A program made the translations under genes and the position numbers. A DNA stretch of 64,000 bases. It comes from Cyanobacteria bacterium FACHB-502. Its GTDB lineage: Bacteria; Cyanobacteriota; Cyanobacteriia; Elainellales; Elainellaceae. The DNA is taken from contig JACJNZ010000029.1 in assembly GCA_014695325.1 (NCBI GenBank), positions 186,001-250,000 on the forward strand, in the 5' to 3' direction. This document shows, one piece after another, positions 20,318 through 37,104 of the stretch. Numbering within the stretch: the first letter of the stretch is position 1; every line of letters starts with the position of its first letter. The notes beneath the pieces are model-generated. The model made no database searches, was not told the origin of the DNA, and saw nothing but the letters and a program-made list of their open reading frames with translations.

Positions 20318-21016
20318 CTACTGGTGTCCCAGTAAGCGATCGTATTCTGTTTTGGTTCTTCTAAAACATTCACAGCCGGAAGCTTCTAGCCCAGCCTGGT
20401 TAATAATTTGAACACTTCCCCGGCGATATTGAATCAGTTTGCGCTCCTGAAGTTTTTGTGCGGTTTGCGTCACTCCTGCCCGGCGTACGCCCAGCATGGT
20501 GGAGAGAAATTCCTGCGTGAGCGGCAAATTATCGACATAGAGCCGTTCTTGGGCTTCCAGCAGCCAACGAGACAACCGTTGCTCTAGCGGGTGGAGGGCA
20601 TTGCAAGCCGCCGTTTGAGAAACCTGCGCCAGAAATGCCTGCAAACAGCGCAGAATCACGTCGTGCAGTTCACCATTGCGATCGAATTCCTCTCGCACAG
20701 TCTGAACGTCGATCTTCATCGCACTGCCTGAAATTTGTGCCATAACCTCGGTCTGGGTTCCTATGTCGTTTCCCAACAGCGCATGAATGCCCAGCACTTC
20801 TCGACTGCCCACCATTCCAACCTCTGCGGTTGCACCGTTTTGCATCGTAATCGTGACCGAAAACAGACAGTCGATCGGGAAATAAAGGTGGGTTAACCGT
20901 TCTCCGGATGTATAAATAACCTCGCCCCGTTCCAGGGTGACATGATTCAGATGAGGGGCAAGTCGATCGAATACAGCAGGGGAGAGGGCAGCCAGTATCC
21001 GATTTTCAGGAATCAT
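20318..21016 (-). CDS. Crp/Fnr-family transcription regulator, paralog 1
   Basis: A 232-residue protein with a cyclic-nucleotide-binding fold (10-130) and a C-terminal winged helix (about 160-215: LTQEFLSTMLGVRRAGVTQT). The beta-roll lacks the Arg-Ser-Ala phosphate-binding signature of cAMP receptors; the segment reads GNDIGTQTEV. It therefore probably does not bind cAMP in the classical way. It has no CxxC iron-sulfur set. It is strongly similar over its whole length to the gene at 21465 and more distantly to that at 23365, which points to local duplication. The target is unknown. Confidence 0.88.
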   Translation of the reverse strand: MIPENRILAALSPAVFDRLAPHLNHVTLERGEVIYTSGERLTHLYFPIDCLFSVTITMQNGATAEVGMVGSREVLGIHALLGNDIGTQTEVMAQISGSAMKIDVQTVREEFDRNGELHDVILRCLQAFLAQVSQTAACNALHPLEQRLSRWLLEAQERLYVDNLPLTQEFLSTMLGVRRAGVTQTAQKLQERKLIQYRRGSVQIINQAGLEASGCECFRRTKTEYDRLLGHQ

Positions 21017-21464
21017 TTACGAGAGGCTCCAAAATGGATGAGAGGCTCTCCATAGAACTCATCTCAAGAGTTAAAGATCAAAATCTATCAACTGATCAGC
21101 AGGAATTGGTAAACTTCTTAAGCTTGCTAATTCTAAACCTGTTGATTCTAAACCTGTTGATTCTAAGCTTGTTGATTCTAAGCTTGTTGATTTTAAGCTT
21201 ATTAATTCAGTGTAGCGATTGTTACGATTGACTTATGTAGGTCTAGCGACCTAAAGATCTTTAAGGTGAGAAGTTTTTTTAGGATGCGTTAGCGTGTAGC
21301 GCATGGTTTTCAGAGAGTTGAGGAATTGTTGCGTTACGGGTTGCGCTATAGAATGCGTTAGAACGACTGCCTAATATAGGCTACAGCCTATAATGTCTAT
21401 CGATTGAGTTTCTAATAGCCTGAATCTATTGTTTCGTTGTACTGCTTTGTTTTGTACTGCTTTG
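21017..21464. other. Intergenic region between two Crp paralogs, with tandem repeat
   Basis: These 448 bases contain a 15-bp tandem repeat (21123-21209) and otherwise AT-rich sequence with short direct repeats (GTACTGCTTTGTT near 21440-21460). It is the leader of Crp paralog 1 and the trailer of paralog 2. A plus-strand frame over the repeat encodes only Leu/Ile/Asn repeats and is not supported as a gene. Confidence 0.6.
21123..21209. repeat. 15-bp tandem repeat, nearly six units
   Basis: Units are variants of CTTGTTGATTCTAAG, with small differences (CCTGTTGATTCTAAA, CTTGTTGATTTTAAG). The array lies about 107 bp upstream of the minus-strand Crp paralog 1 start, so copy number could change its promoter spacing. 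Confidence 0.92.
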
Positions 21465-22163
21465 TTATTGTTGCCCTAACAAGCGATCGTATTCTGTTTT
21501 GATTCTTCTAAAGCATTCACAGGCAGAAGCTTCCAGCCCAGCCTGGTCAAGGATCTGCACATTGCCGCGACGATATTGAATCAGTTTGCGTTCCTGAAGC
21601 TTTTGAGCCATCTGCGTAACGCCTGCCCGACGTACGCCCAGCATCGTTGCGATAAATTCCTGCGTGAGCAGCAGATGATCAGAGTGAATTCGCTCCTGCG
21701 TTTCGAGTAGCCAGCGGGGAAGGCGTTGTTCTAGCGTATGAAGTGCGTTGCAAGCTGCCGTTTGGGAAACCTGCGCCAGAAATGCCTGCAAACAGCGCAG
21801 AATCAGGTCGTGCAGTTCACCATTGCGATCGAATTCCTCTCGCACAATCTGAACGTCGATCTTGATCGCACTGCCTGGAACTTGTACCACAACCTCGGTC
21901 TGGGTTCCTACGTCGTTTCCCAATAGCGCATGAATGCCCAGCACTTCTCGACTGCCCACCATTCCGACTTCTGCGGTTGCACCATTTTGCATCGTAATCG
22001 TGACCGAAAGCAGACAGTCGATCGGGAAATAAAGGTGGGTTAACCGTTCTCCAGGGGTATAAATAAACTTGCCTTGCTCCAGGGTGACGTGATCCAGATG
22101 AGGGGCAAGTCGATCGAATACAGCAGGGGAGAGAATCGCCAGTATTTGATTTTCAGCGGTCAT
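21465..22163 (-). CDS. Crp/Fnr-family transcription regulator, paralog 2
   Basis: This is a close paralog of the gene at 20318 with the same length from the aligned start MTAENQILAILSPAV; an upstream ATG ten codons earlier is less likely. The cNMP-like fold covers 10-130 and the winged helix LTQEFIATMLGVRRAGVTQM about 160-215. The canonical cAMP phosphate-cassette Arg-Ser is again absent. Recognition helices of paralogs 1 and 2 are nearly identical, so they may share or compete for sites. A receiver-only gene lies 76 bp upstream on the same strand. Confidence 0.88.
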   Translation of the reverse strand: MTAENQILAILSPAVFDRLAPHLDHVTLEQGKFIYTPGERLTHLYFPIDCLLSVTITMQNGATAEVGMVGSREVLGIHALLGNDVGTQTEVVVQVPGSAIKIDVQIVREEFDRNGELHDLILRCLQAFLAQVSQTAACNALHTLEQRLPRWLLETQERIHSDHLLLTQEFIATMLGVRRAGVTQMAQKLQERKLIQYRRGNVQILDQAGLEASACECFRRIKTEYDRLLGQQ

Positions 22164-22239
22164 TAGAAGTCTTGGAAGCTTTAAAAAGAGCACTGAGAGG
22201 CTCTATAAAGAACATATCTCAATATTGAGAGAAATTGGG

Positions 22240-22881: not shown

Positions 22882-23289
22882 TTAGCTGTGGCAAACCGGG
22901 CAAAGCTGGTATAGAAGCTGCCGGAGCTGCTGCCCATCTTCCAGATAAGTCACATACTCGCTTTCACCCATCTGCACGTTTTGCCCTTCTAGCTCAACGC
23001 CATACTGCTCTGCCATGATCACAATGGGGGTGGTGCTAGAAACGTCTGCCTCTTGGCGAATGTTACGCCCGATGTCGATAAACTCCTCGATCGATCGCCC
23101 AAATTGATTCATCAGAAGCAGGTCAAAAAGTTTGCCTTTCCCCCTGATCCATTGAATTGCGTCTGCTACATCGAGCGTCACGATGACATTGTAACCCCAA
23201 TTACGAAGGTTCTCGATGAGAATAGGTCTAACGCTGTCATCTGGCTCAACCAGCAAAATAGTTGGCAAAATGGATTGCTTCTGACTCAC
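22882..23289 (-). CDS. Pseudo-receiver protein (Asp to Asn)
   Basis: A 135-residue receiver-like protein. Strand 1 is TILLVEPDDSVRPILIENL. The expected acceptor segment reads FDLLLMNQFGRS, with Asn in place of Asp, so it cannot be phosphorylated normally. The switch Thr position is Met-Ala (IVIMAEQY) and no clear switch Lys is seen. The C-terminus ends in CPVCHS, a Cys pair that could bind metal or form a disulfide. It probably acts as a protein-interaction module. It lies on the same strand as the neighbouring Crp and receiver genes. Confidence 0.75.
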   Translation of the reverse strand: MSQKQSILPTILLVEPDDSVRPILIENLRNWGYNVIVTLDVADAIQWIRGKGKLFDLLLMNQFGRSIEEFIDIGRNIRQEADVSSTTPIVIMAEQYGVELEGQNVQMGESEYVTYLEDGQQLRQLLYQLCPVCHS

Positions 23290-23364: not shown

Positions 23365-24078
23365 CTACGGTACCATACCTGAATTCACTGGTAGAAGGCG
23401 ATCGTATTCTTCTCTTAAGGTCTGAAAGCATTCACAGGAGTATGCCTCTAACCTTGTTCGATCCTGAATGTGGATGTGCCCCCGGTTGTAGCGAATGAAA
23501 CCTTTCTCTTGCATAATTTGAGCCCTTTGCGTTACCCCAGCCCGACGGATCCCCAGCATATTTGCAATAAATTCTTGCGTCAGGGCGAGGTCATCTCCCT
23601 CCACCCGGTCATGCACTTCCAGAAGCCAACGCGCCAACCGCTGGTCTATCTGGTGCAAACTATTGCAGGCACTTGTCTGTGAGATCTGGGCAATAAAGGC
23701 TTGGGTATAGCGCAGTATCACATCGCGCAGGTCTTTGTTCTGATCAAACTCATTACGCAAGATCTCAGAATCGATTCTTAAAGCTTTGCCTGGAATTTGC
23801 ACATTATAGGTCGTTTGCGTGGTTTCTTGACCTCCCATCAGGCTATTGATGCCTAACACTTCTCGATTGCCAACCATGCCAGTTTCAGCGGTTGTACCAT
23901 CCCACATAACGATCGTAATTGACAGCGCACAATTGAGTGGGAAGTACAGATGGCGAATCTCATAACCCGGTTCGTGGAGGCGATCGCCCGATTGTAGCGT
24001 GACCTCTCTCAAAAAAGGAGAAAGCTTGTTAAATAGTGCCTGAGGCATCGCATTCAGCAAGCGATTTTTAGTCCTCAT
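23365..24078 (-). CDS. Crp/Fnr-family transcription regulator, paralog 3
   Basis: The third Crp-like protein, 237 residues from MRTKNRLLNAMPQALFNKLS. The cNMP-like fold and winged helix (LTQEFIANMLGIRRAGVTQR) match the paralogs at 20318 and 21465, at lower identity. The frame stays open 48 codons further upstream, but that part is only Glu-Asp-Thr-Asp-Ile-Lys repeats encoded by the tandem array at 24094-24186. I place the start at 24078, which aligns with the paralogs. The cAMP-binding Arg-Ser motif is absent here too. Confidence 0.86.
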   Translation of the reverse strand: MRTKNRLLNAMPQALFNKLSPFLREVTLQSGDRLHEPGYEIRHLYFPLNCALSITIVMWDGTTAETGMVGNREVLGINSLMGGQETTQTTYNVQIPGKALRIDSEILRNEFDQNKDLRDVILRYTQAFIAQISQTSACNSLHQIDQRLARWLLEVHDRVEGDDLALTQEFIANMLGIRRAGVTQRAQIMQEKGFIRYNRGHIHIQDRTRLEAYSCECFQTLREEYDRLLPVNSGMVP

Positions 24079-24093
24079 CACGTTTTGTACTCC

Positions 24094-24186
24094 ATCTTCT
24101 ATATCTTCTGTATCTTTTATATCTTCTGTATCTTTTATATCTTTTATTTCTTCTGTATCTTTTATATCTTCTGTATCTTCTATATT
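24094..24186. repeat. 9/18-bp tandem repeat upstream of Crp paralog 3
   Basis: Alternating TATCTTCTG and TATCTTTTA units form an array of about 93 bp starting 16 bp before the Crp paralog 3 start. It would lie in the leader mRNA or promoter. The unit length is a multiple of three, which is why the frame remains open through it. Confidence 0.85.
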
Positions 24187-24486
24187 ATGTCTTATCTTGT
24201 GGTCAGAAAGCAGACCCCGCACTCCGGTTAGAGATTATCATCCGAAGCGGAAGGAGTTAAGGCAAAATGCACTGAAGAAAGCGCATCCGACCTTCACCTG
24301 ACCCTTTCCTTTGTCCGATACCGTACTGAAATTTGCTTGCAGAGGGACTATTCTTCGGGGGGGGGTAAAATCTACCTCAGTCAAGATCTGAAACTAATTG
24401 CGTTGTCAATCTTGTTGATGCTTGAACCCTTTTACTCTCCCGAAAGAGATGACGTTGGCGTTTTCTCCGATACTTGATTCTCCTAC

Positions 24487-25440
24487 ATGCCTATGGTTCC
24501 AACATTAGCAGCAACTGAGTTAGAAGACTTGCTGATTTATCTCAGCCAGGTTCATTGCGTTGACCTCAGAGGCTACAAACGCTCTACACTCCTGCGTCGT
24601 ACACGGGTGCGCATGCAGTGCCTCAAGGTTGAAAATTATCAAGATTATCTTGATTATCTAGAGCAGCAGCCCGATGAGGTGCCCCAGCTCTTAGACACCA
24701 TTTATATTAACCTCACCGGCTTTTTTCGCGATCGCTTCGTTTGGGATTATCTGGCAAATGAGATTATCCCGCAGATCATTGCGAACAAAGCACCCCACGA
24801 ACCGATCCGCATCTGGAGTGCGGCCTGTGCATCAGGAGAAGAAACCTATTCACTGGCGATTCTATTCGCAGAAGCCCTGGGCATCGAGCAATTTCAGCAG
24901 CGAGTACAGATCTACGGCACAGATGTTGACCCAGATGCCATTCGGCAAGCGCGTCAGGGTTATTATCCCGCTTATGCGATCGAAGCGATTCCGCCTGCCC
25001 TACAAGCGCAGTATTTTGAGCATCGTCAGGATCTCTACTGCTGGCGGCAAGATCTTCACTGCTCGATCAATTTTCAGCTTCATAACCTGATTCAAGATCC
25101 GCCCCTGCCTCAGATCGATCTACTGGTTTGCCGCAATCTGCTCATTTATCTCACCCCAGAAACCCAGCTTCGGGTGCTGGCTCGCTTGCATCAGAGTTTA
25201 GAGCAAACCGGATTCTTGCTGTTAGGACAGGCAGAGAACCTGGTGACTCCTCCTGAAACATCGCTATTCACGCCGCTTCATCTGCGAGCCAGGGCATTCA
25301 CCAAAACGCCAGGAACGACCAAGGCTTATCGTGCCGGACGCTCACCCAAGGTAAAGGTATCGGCTCAACTTGCAGCTAATTCACTTGCAGCTAATTCACT
25401 TGCAGCTAATTCAGTGCTTCTTGACTCAGTCAGCATATAG
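24487..25440 (+). CDS. CheR-type methyltransferase
   Basis: A SAM-dependent glutamate methyltransferase of the chemoreceptor-modifying family. The N-terminal helical domain is followed by the INLTGFFRD motif (about 75), and the SAM site is WSAACASGEETYSLAIL (near 110) with YGTDVD. The C-terminal part shows DLLVCRNLLIYL and LLLGQAEN. No chemoreceptor, CheB or CheA gene is nearby, so this is an orphan and may modify a sensor kinase instead. The C-terminus is three LAANS repeats from a 15-bp tandem repeat that also encodes the end of the converging radical-SAM gene; the two genes overlap by 76 bp. Confidence 0.9.
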   Translation: MPMVPTLAATELEDLLIYLSQVHCVDLRGYKRSTLLRRTRVRMQCLKVENYQDYLDYLEQQPDEVPQLLDTIYINLTGFFRDRFVWDYLANEIIPQIIANKAPHEPIRIWSAACASGEETYSLAILFAEALGIEQFQQRVQIYGTDVDPDAIRQARQGYYPAYAIEAIPPALQAQYFEHRQDLYCWRQDLHCSINFQLHNLIQDPPLPQIDLLVCRNLLIYLTPETQLRVLARLHQSLEQTGFLLLGQAENLVTPPETSLFTPLHLRARAFTKTPGTTKAYRAGRSPKVKVSAQLAANSLAANSLAANSVLLDSVSI

Positions 25441-26963
25441 CGTGTGAGTTGAGTTTCAATTTCATCGCGCACAATCTGACGATAGTCGATGAAATGCTCT
25501 AAGTGAGCGCAGTTGGTCAGGTAATGCTTAAACACGCCTGGGTTATGGCGAATGATAGAAAAGAGCTGTTGCCAAAACTGCCAGCGCGTATTGCGCTTTA
25601 ACCCCTGTCGCCAGCAAATGAGAAACAGTGCCCGCAGGTCTGCCAGTTCAGGCAGCTTAAACTTTTTCTTGCGATGCTGAGGCGTCATGTCAATAAAGTG
25701 ACGATAGACCCGCGCCAGGTAGCGATCGGGTTCATACAAATCCCAGAAGCATCGAATGTATTCACGCGCAATTTCTTCAACCGGGCGAGTGGGAACAAAA
25801 TTAATCAACGTCGTCTGGTGAATATTCGCTTCGTTTCCGGTGTCCAGCAAACGCCCTTCTTTTTGCAAACGATGCGACAGTGCAGTGTTGGGTAACGCTT
25901 GCAGCATACTGAAAAGTGCCTGCGGAATTGCAGTCGCTTCTACAAAATCGATAATGCGATCGCCTGCACCCGATTTTTCGCCATCAAACCCGATAATGAA
26001 TCCTGCCATGACGCGCAACCCGGTTCGGTTGATGGTTTTCACCGACTCGATCAGCGAGTTGCGGGTATTCTGAAATTTTTGCGTCAGTGATAAACTGTCG
26101 GTGTCGGGCGTTTCAATGCCCAAAAAGACCGCCGTAAAATTCGCAGCAATCATCAGATCCAGGAGTTCCTGATCCTGCGCTAGATCAACCGAAGCTTCGG
26201 TCGAAAGACTAAACGGATAGCCCCGCTCTGCCATCCAGGGAGCTAACTCTCGCAGCAGCAGTTTGACATTCCGCTTATTGCCAATGAAGTTATCGTCTAC
26301 CACAAAGATCGATCGCCGCCAGCCTAGGTCATACAAAGTCTGCAACTCTGCCAGCAGTTGAGCCGGGGTTTTTGTTCGCGGCTTCCGCCCATACAGCACA
26401 ATAATGTCGCAGAACTCGCACTGGTAAGGGCATCCGCGCGAGAACTGAACCGACATATCGCTATAGGCCTTGAGATCAAGCAGGTCAAAGCGGGGAACGG
26501 GCGTAAAGGTAACATCTGGCTTTTCACCATTGGCACGAAACACACCCGATGTTTCTCCTCGCTCCAGTGCTTCAACAAAGAGCGGCAGGGTAATTTCCCC
26601 TTCATCCAGCACCAAAAAGTCTGCCCCTGCCTCTTGAGCGGCTTCAGGAACAGAAGTTACATAGGGTCCACCTACAGCAACCTGCTTGCCACGACGTTTT
26701 GCTTTCTCAATCAGATACAGCATGTCGTCTTTTTGCACGATCATGCCGGAAATGATGATCAGGTCTGCCCAATACCAATCGGCTTCACTTTCATAGCCAA
26801 CGTTGCGATCGACCAGCCGAAACTCCCAGGATTGCGGCAGAATTGCGGCAACCGTAATCAAGCTTAGCGGAGGAAGAGAGACTTTGCGCCCAATCAGTTC
26901 CAGAGCTTTATCAAAAGACCAGAACGACTTGGGGAAGAGAGGATACAGTAATAAAACTCGCAT
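25365..26963 (-). CDS. B12-binding radical SAM protein (DUF4070 type)
   Basis: A 532-residue protein. The cobalamin-binding-like domain (1-140) starts MRVLLLYPLFPKSFWSFDKA. The radical SAM core has CPYQCEFC (three Cys in a CxxxCxxC arrangement, near residue 180), VVDDNFIGN and LSTEASVDL. The C-terminal part matches the DUF4070 arrangement. Hopanoid C-2 methylase HpnP has this architecture, but many cyanobacterial paralogs do not act on hopanoids and no hopanoid gene lies nearby. The start is ATG 26963; a TTG five codons upstream is weaker. The C-terminus ends in ELAAS repeats encoded by the shared tandem repeat. Confidence 0.88.
   Translation of the reverse strand: MRVLLLYPLFPKSFWSFDKALELIGRKVSLPPLSLITVAAILPQSWEFRLVDRNVGYESEADWYWADLIIISGMIVQKDDMLYLIEKAKRRGKQVAVGGPYVTSVPEAAQEAGADFLVLDEGEITLPLFVEALERGETSGVFRANGEKPDVTFTPVPRFDLLDLKAYSDMSVQFSRGCPYQCEFCDIIVLYGRKPRTKTPAQLLAELQTLYDLGWRRSIFVVDDNFIGNKRNVKLLLRELAPWMAERGYPFSLSTEASVDLAQDQELLDLMIAANFTAVFLGIETPDTDSLSLTQKFQNTRNSLIESVKTINRTGLRVMAGFIIGFDGEKSGAGDRIIDFVEATAIPQALFSMLQALPNTALSHRLQKEGRLLDTGNEANIHQTTLINFVPTRPVEEIAREYIRCFWDLYEPDRYLARVYRHFIDMTPQHRKKKFKLPELADLRALFLICWRQGLKRNTRWQFWQQLFSIIRHNPGVFKHYLTNCAHLEHFIDYRQIVRDEIETQLTRYMLTESRSTELAASELAASELAAS
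25369..25413. repeat. 15-bp tandem repeat encoding both converging C-termini
   Basis: Three perfect units of CTTGCAGCTAATTCA. Read on the plus strand they give LAANS three times at the end of the CheR-like protein. Read on the minus strand they give ELAAS repeats at the end of the radical-SAM protein. Confidence 0.97.
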
Positions 26964-26978
26964 AATATATTTACTCAA

Positions 26979-27403
26979 TTCAATTTCGGTTCAATCTTTG
27001 TTTAGTCTCGGTTCAAGTCCGGTTCAAGTCCGGTTTAATCCCGGTTCAGTCCCGGTTCAATCTATTCAGTCTTTGTTATCAACATTTGTAGCATTCTCAA
27101 TTCGCCTCATCATCCTGTGATTCAAACCTGTTATCCAGACCTGTTACTTAGAAGGTAAACCTAAACGTTACTCTATCGGCTACTCTATCGACTACTGCGG
27201 GTCAAGTTAAGTTTCTCTTGTTCTGTTTTAGATTCTTTTAAGATTTTGAAATAGACGTTTACACTGTTTACACTTCAGTTTAGGCAACCTTCGCCTGATA
27301 ATCAACCTGTTCATTAAAAAATCGAGTGCTGTCGCTTAAGGCAGTAACTTTACCCCGTTTGCATACAGCACTCAAATGTTTTGCCTGCGTTTAATCCTGA
27401 GCG
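26979..27403. other. Intergenic region with 11-bp repeats
   Basis: These 425 bases are the leader of the radical-SAM gene and the trailer of desC. From about 27005 to 27062 a degenerate 11-bp tandem repeat (GTCCGGTTCAA and variants) lies 40-100 bp before the radical-SAM start. Short direct repeats (CTACTCTATCG, TGTTTACACT) lie near 27170-27280. There is no gene. Confidence 0.6.
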
Positions 27404-28585: not shown

Positions 28586-28948
28586 CTAAGACAGAGAAAC
28601 ATTGAGAGGATTAGAAGGTGTACTGGGATACATGTCCTTCGGGATCGTCGCTCCACGCAAGCAGGCTCGATTCAGCTTAGCCGATGCCAGGCTGGTGTCA
28701 CTTAAGTTGGCATCCACCAGATTTGCGCTTGTCAAATTTGTTTCAGTTAAATTTGCCCCAGTCAGGATTGCACCCGTGAGATTTGCCTGACTCAAGTTTG
28801 TTTTGGTGAGATTTGCCTTTGTTAAATTGGCACCGCTGAGATTAATGCCAGCCAGGTTCAGGTTTCTCAAATTTGCTGCCATCAGGTTCAGGTTTCTGAA
28901 ATCTCGTTGTCCTGCTGAATAGCGGCTGCAAAGTTCTTTAGTATTCAT
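28586..28948 (-). CDS. Pentapeptide-repeat protein
   Basis: A 120-residue protein. From about residue 15 to 100 it is built of A(N/D)Lxx pentapeptides (ANLRN, INLSG, ANLTK, TNLSQ and so on), which fold as a right-handed quadrilateral beta-helix. The start at ATG 28948 (MNTKELCSRY) is the usual one for this family; an upstream start would add 18 unrelated residues. There is no signal peptide. The function of small cyanobacterial pentapeptide proteins is mostly unknown. It lies downstream of rpsU on the same strand with a 54-bp gap. Confidence 0.9.
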   Translation of the reverse strand: MNTKELCSRYSAGQRDFRNLNLMAANLRNLNLAGINLSGANLTKANLTKTNLSQANLTGAILTGANLTETNLTSANLVDANLSDTSLASAKLNRACLRGATIPKDMYPSTPSNPLNVSLS

Positions 28949-29002
28949 AGTCAAATATTTCCAGAATAAATGAATTCGATCGCCCTTAAACTCAATTCCC
29001 AA

Positions 29003-29310: not shown

Positions 29311-29622
29311 TTAGTAGCGTCGAGAAGAATTACCCCGGTTGCCCCAACCGCCGCCGCCACCGCCGCCAGAACCTCTTTCTTCACGGGGTCTTGCTTTATT
29401 GACTTTTAGATCGCGTCCCATCCATTCTGCGCCGTCAAGTGCTTCGATCGCGGCAGTTTCTTCTGCATCGGTTCCCATTTCAACAAAAGCAAATCCACGG
29501 AGCCGACCTGTTTCGCGATCGGTCGGAAGTTGAACTCGTTTCACCGTTCCGTATTCTTGAAAAACCTGATTCAAACCATCCTCCGTGACCTCGTAGGATA
29601 GGTTGCCCACATAAATTGACAT
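29311..29622 (-). CDS. rbp: Glycine-rich RNA-binding protein (single RRM)
   Basis: A 103-residue protein. One RRM covers residues 1-80 with RNP2 IYVGNL (3-8) and RNP1 RGFAFVEM (about 42-49). A Gly-rich tail with Arg/Ser follows. Cyanobacterial proteins of this type bind RNA and many are cold-induced; some direct mRNAs to the thylakoid surface. A leader of about 200 bp precedes it and rpsU follows. The Gly-rich tail places it with the RbpA type. Confidence 0.95.
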   Translation of the reverse strand: MSIYVGNLSYEVTEDGLNQVFQEYGTVKRVQLPTDRETGRLRGFAFVEMGTDAEETAAIEALDGAEWMGRDLKVNKARPREERGSGGGGGGGWGNRGNSSRRY

Positions 29623-36561: not shown

Positions 36562-37104
36562 TTAGCTGTTAAGCGTTTCGTAGCGTTCCTGCTCGGCACG
36601 GGAATTTCGGGCATTCAGCGTTTCATTCCGCTCTTGTTCCCGGCGAGAGTTTCGAGCATTTAGCGTTTCGTAGCGTTCCTGCTGGGCACGCGAGTTTCGA
36701 GCATTCAGCGTTTCATTCCGCTCTTGCTCCCAGCGAGAGTTTCGAGCATTTAGCGTTTCGTAGCGTTCCTGCTGGGCACGCGAGTTTCGAGCATTTAGCG
36801 TTTCATTCCGCTCTTGCTGGGCACGCGAGTTTCGAGCATTCAGCGTTTCATTCCGCTCTTGCTCCCAGCGAGAGTTTCGAGCATTTAGCGTTTCGTAGCG
36901 TTCTTGCTGGGCACGCGAGTTTCGAGCATTCAGCGTTTCATTCCGCTCTTGTTCCCGGCGGGAATTACGGGCGTTGAGTTGGTCTTGTTGTCCTTCGCTG
37001 ATCGTCTGAGAAACTGCTCCAGAATGAACGAAATTGCTAAATGCGGGCGTTGCAGCAGAGACAAGAACGATCGCAGACAGTGTTGCAAAAATAGAACGTC
37101 TCAT
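36562..37104 (-). CDS. Exported protein of 15-residue tandem repeats
   Basis: A 180-residue protein. A clear signal peptide (1-23: basic start, hydrophobic core, cleavage near AFS-NF) is followed by a 20-residue linker and nine repeats of 15 residues (44-178). The consensus is NARNSR-x-x-QER-N/Y-ETL, where x-x is AQ, WE, RE or AE. Asn and Tyr at one position largely alternate between units. The repeats are highly charged, and unit length suggests helical or coiled structure. I recognise no family. It may be periplasmic or cell-surface. The DNA is a 45-bp tandem array prone to length change. Confidence 0.8.
   Translation of the reverse strand: MRRSIFATLSAIVLVSAATPAFSNFVHSGAVSQTISEGQQDQLNARNSRREQERNETLNARNSRAQQERYETLNARNSRWEQERNETLNARNSRAQQERNETLNARNSRAQQERYETLNARNSRWEQERNETLNARNSRAQQERYETLNARNSRREQERNETLNARNSRAEQERYETLNS
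36571..36975. repeat. 45-bp tandem repeat, nine units, coding
   Basis: Nine units of 45 bp lie inside the exported repeat protein. Units are nearly identical at the DNA level (GAGTTTCGAGCATT core), which indicates recent expansion or homogenisation. Confidence 0.95.

Follow-up and report, generated by a model that had tools for sequence, protein, structure and literature searches.

Two converging genes share their 3′ ends in the window, the 64,000-nucleotide stretch of DNA analysed here. A CheR-type methyltransferase gene occupies 24487–25440 on the plus strand (317 aa; Pfam CheR 1.4e-52, CheR_N 3.5e-9), and a B12-binding radical-SAM/DUF4070 gene occupies 25365–26978 on the minus strand (537 aa; Pfam DUF4070 2.2e-51, Radical_SAM 1.6e-16, B12-binding 1e-10). 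The two frames overlap convergently by 76 bp (25365–25440), and wholly within this overlap sits a tandem array of three perfect CTTGCAGCTAATTCA units (25369–25413) that is read on both strands, as LAANS on the plus and as ELAAS on the minus strand. Before its stop the CheR-type protein ends in ...SAQ-LAANS-LAANS-LAANS-VLLDSVSI, and the radical-SAM protein in ...SRST-ELAAS-ELAAS-ELAAS. Both features had been reported by a sequence-only reading of this DNA; the overlap was borne out by the ORF coordinates, and the units by the sequence, the ORF list and a TRF call (25368–25413: period 15, 3.1 copies, 100% matches).

The unit can be tolerated by both proteins because its 15 bp are a multiple of three and both the LAANS and the ELAAS frame are open. 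Since it lies in the gene overlap, the two lengths are coupled: as the earlier reading stated, a whole-unit change would alter each protein by 5 aa per unit. Its description of the unit as stop-free on both strands is right for the two frames used but not in general, with three of the six frames through the unit open and three running into a stop. Such two-strand openness is unremarkable, because a random 15-mer that is open in one frame has a given antisense frame open as well 84% of the time.

The array is non-random and bears the signature typical of local tandem duplication. All three exact occurrences of the unit in the 6.6-Mb genome fall within it, and a reversed control gave 0 occurrences in the same sequence; as no copies exist elsewhere in the genome, a mobile or dispersed repeat was rejected. 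A terminator or hairpin was rejected as well: no hairpin, inverted repeat or terminator-like site was found at the array, and its folding is no better than that of shuffles. Tandem repeats occur at other places in the window too, the largest being a nested 45/90/135-bp array of 8.6 copies (36572–36956), and an 11-bp imperfect array of 7.6 copies (26979–27062) lies immediately upstream of the radical-SAM ORF start.

Analysis of the radical-SAM family (the tails of about 50 relatives) revealed a core that is highly conserved up to residue 513–520 or thereabouts, followed by a short tail that differs among relatives. An informative one is Centralia MAG 596 (L095), whose protein has 94% amino acid identity to that of the window and ends in ...SRSTELAAR before the stop, with a single unit (TCA AGA AGC ACT GAA TTG GCC GCA CGC TGA GC). 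The window gene has the same first codons, then GAA TTA GCT GCA AGT three times, and then the same TGA GC. One unit thus stands at the homologous site of the relative in an identical stop context. The unit therefore represents the five codons with which the radical-SAM gene natively ends, and the window carries two copies more, 30 bp beyond the single unit of the relative; any two of the three may be the new ones. The same-genus genome G001 stops earlier (...QLANYS) and has no tail, so the radical-SAM tail is dispensable in evolution; the tails of other orthologues vary freely.

The residues of the CheR-type protein can be aligned with orthologues up to about position 274, and the nearest of these (G001, G004, G017 and G055; 59–66% identity) end about 10–20 aa beyond that point, at or before residue 295, from which onwards the window protein is read from the antisense of radical-SAM. 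The window protein is about 23–33 aa longer than these four orthologues, a 3′ extension whose residues 295–317 (25369–25437), the (LAANS)3 repeat among them, come entirely from radical-SAM sequence read in antisense. Residues 275–294 do not align with the orthologues, and neither this stretch nor the joint showed similarity of note to the other sequences fetched. These tails are missing from the homologues of either protein. Both lie fully outside the conserved domains, in unconserved ends, and are probably neutral.

That a gene running into this strand should find a long open frame is not surprising. Among 50 radical-SAM 3′ ends, some of which are one locus fetched twice, the antisense frame used by CheR is open for at least 14 codons in 34% and for at least 24 codons in 10%. 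In Centralia MAG 596 it is open for 18 codons, though no convergent CheR gene is present. The antisense openness is accidental, and CheR overruns of this kind are to be expected.

Comparison of the gene neighbourhoods suggests how the two 3′ ends came to face each other. In G001, G004 and G017 the CheR gene is accompanied by the Crp-type and response-regulator neighbours seen in the window (23365–24222 and 22882–23289), but is not next to the radical-SAM gene. The latter, in G001, retains its upstream neighbours (window equivalents 28586–29002 and 29311–29622) and is followed, in place of CheR, by an unrelated ORF that we call SDR-like from its N-terminal sequence and not from a family search. 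The CheR block and the radical-SAM block are thus each syntenic in G001, separately, and the convergent pair is therefore a joint between blocks that was made in this lineage; the breakpoint itself would fall within 25310–25365. The CheR/radical-SAM junction was absent from 60 relatives, 36 family members and 80 GTDB loci of other genomes, and none of the relatives fetched has a CheR gene convergent with the radical-SAM gene or the overlap. Among the 36 family members and 80 other-genome loci there was also no conserved association of repeat and genes: array and junction are private to the window genome.

The Crp-like gene beside CheR is the last of three consecutive paralogues (20318–21016, 21465–22193 and 23365–24222) that belong to a signalling cluster of hybrid kinases and response regulators recurring in relatives; a 6-copy 15-bp array (21119–21208) lies between two of them. 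The N-terminal 48 codons of ORF 23365–24222 (DTEDIKDTEE...) contain a 9-bp array of 10 copies that are 80% alike (24094–24185). Its true start is probably the internal Met at residue 49, because homologues align only from residue 48–49 onwards, and this array would then lie in the intergenic space from which the Crp-like and CheR genes diverge.

Stop-codon movement is an accepted route to convergent overlaps (PMC4161906), and of 178 convergent overlaps longer than 60 bp, 124 have been attributed to 3′ extension of one or both genes relative to orthologues, extensions which that study treats as misannotation or error (PMC2478687). The CheR-type gene fits the 3′-extension pattern of the latter study. 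Like other prokaryotic overlaps that arose by 3′ extension or stop loss (PMC2478687, PMC4161906), the present one is a tail-to-tail arrangement in which one gene runs overlong into the opposite strand of its neighbour; unlike them, it holds a small in-frame tandem array that lengthens both ends. The array itself resembles in-frame intragenic tandem repeats with units that are multiples of three, in that it has perfect 15-bp in-frame copies and a single unit in a close relative, but it serves as coding sequence for two genes, one on each strand. A literature search for precedents of such a repeat found nothing directly on point.

Within the genome, both features stand out against the local baseline, although their kind is familiar. 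In a 1.25-Mb sample, with genes called by a simple home-made method based on codon usage, only one of 170 convergent pairs overlaps by at least 30 bp, namely the CheR/radical-SAM pair, and only one of six perfect arrays (period 9–60, about three or more copies) is located in two genes, namely the one described here. That two independent accidents should have struck one 76-bp stretch is somewhat surprising and counts mildly against the origin proposed below, although a rearrangement joint could favour both.

Taken together, we consider it very probable that the locus is an evolutionary by-product at a private junction, formed by rearrangement, overrun of CheR past a lost stop and triplication of the unit, with tails that are probably neutral. 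A rearrangement, to which the synteny points, would have set the CheR 3′ end, with its Crp-type and response-regulator neighbours, tail-to-tail with the resident radical-SAM 3′ end. CheR, which has no stop at its ancestral length, reads 23 codons antisense to radical-SAM until the first in-frame stop at 25438; the length difference from the orthologues is consistent with the loss of a stop, presumably near 25365, either at the joint or through mutation. At the end of the radical-SAM gene, the five codons for ELAAS that precede the stop would have been tripled in tandem from the single-unit state that Centralia MAG 596 retains, presumably through slippage during replication, adding 10 aa to each protein. 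This triplication may have preceded or followed the rearrangement and the CheR overrun. The 76-bp overlap is the expected outcome of CheR stop loss at a new gene junction.

It is unlikely that the CheR extension is an artefact, with a frameshift or sequencing error near 25290–25365 having erased the true stop and the repeat then belonging to the radical-SAM protein only. Such an error would explain why residues 275–294 fail to align with orthologues, and Palleja et al. count many long convergent overlaps as errors of this sort (PMC2478687); however, no other frame yields an obviously orthologue-like CheR end, and the unaligned gap is explained equally well by a true rearrangement joint, as the synteny suggests. 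Less probable still is antisense interference between the two transcripts: the converging genes do share 76 bp with no terminator-like site between their ends, but this is generic to all overlapping convergent pairs, and the repeat shows no regulatory signs, having no inverted repeat and folding no better than shuffles.

We regard as very improbable a contingency element whose slippage shifts both C-termini jointly and tunes CheR and radical-SAM activity or the stability of both proteins. The geometry permits coupled in-frame change and the perfect copies imply an expansion that is recent or still active, but the array is short, with only three units, the tails are unconserved and missing in homologues, the two genes are paired in this genome alone, and the two enzymes have no evident functional link. 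The "coupled variable tails" of the sequence-only reading are not supported as a trait: in the single genome of this kind that could be examined no copy-number polymorphism was seen, and among relatives Centralia MAG 596 with its one unit and G001 with its earlier stop differ by lineage, and as neither has CheR opposite, no coupled change was observed. With no variation seen and no conserved association, the array does not qualify as a contingency locus. It is scarcely credible that one array sets the length of two unrelated enzymes encoded on opposite strands, with selection acting on what its copy-number changes do to both. The original observation is correct; its interpretation holds only in part and was partly over-read.

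Only joint variation in population data would give the locus a broader significance, and the overlap with its array looks like an ordinary evolutionary accident of traceable history and not like a working system. As such it neatly illustrates how genes come to overlap convergently and acquire new protein tails, through a rearrangement joint, a missing stop and a local duplication, with the single-copy state of the duplication still visible in a relative.
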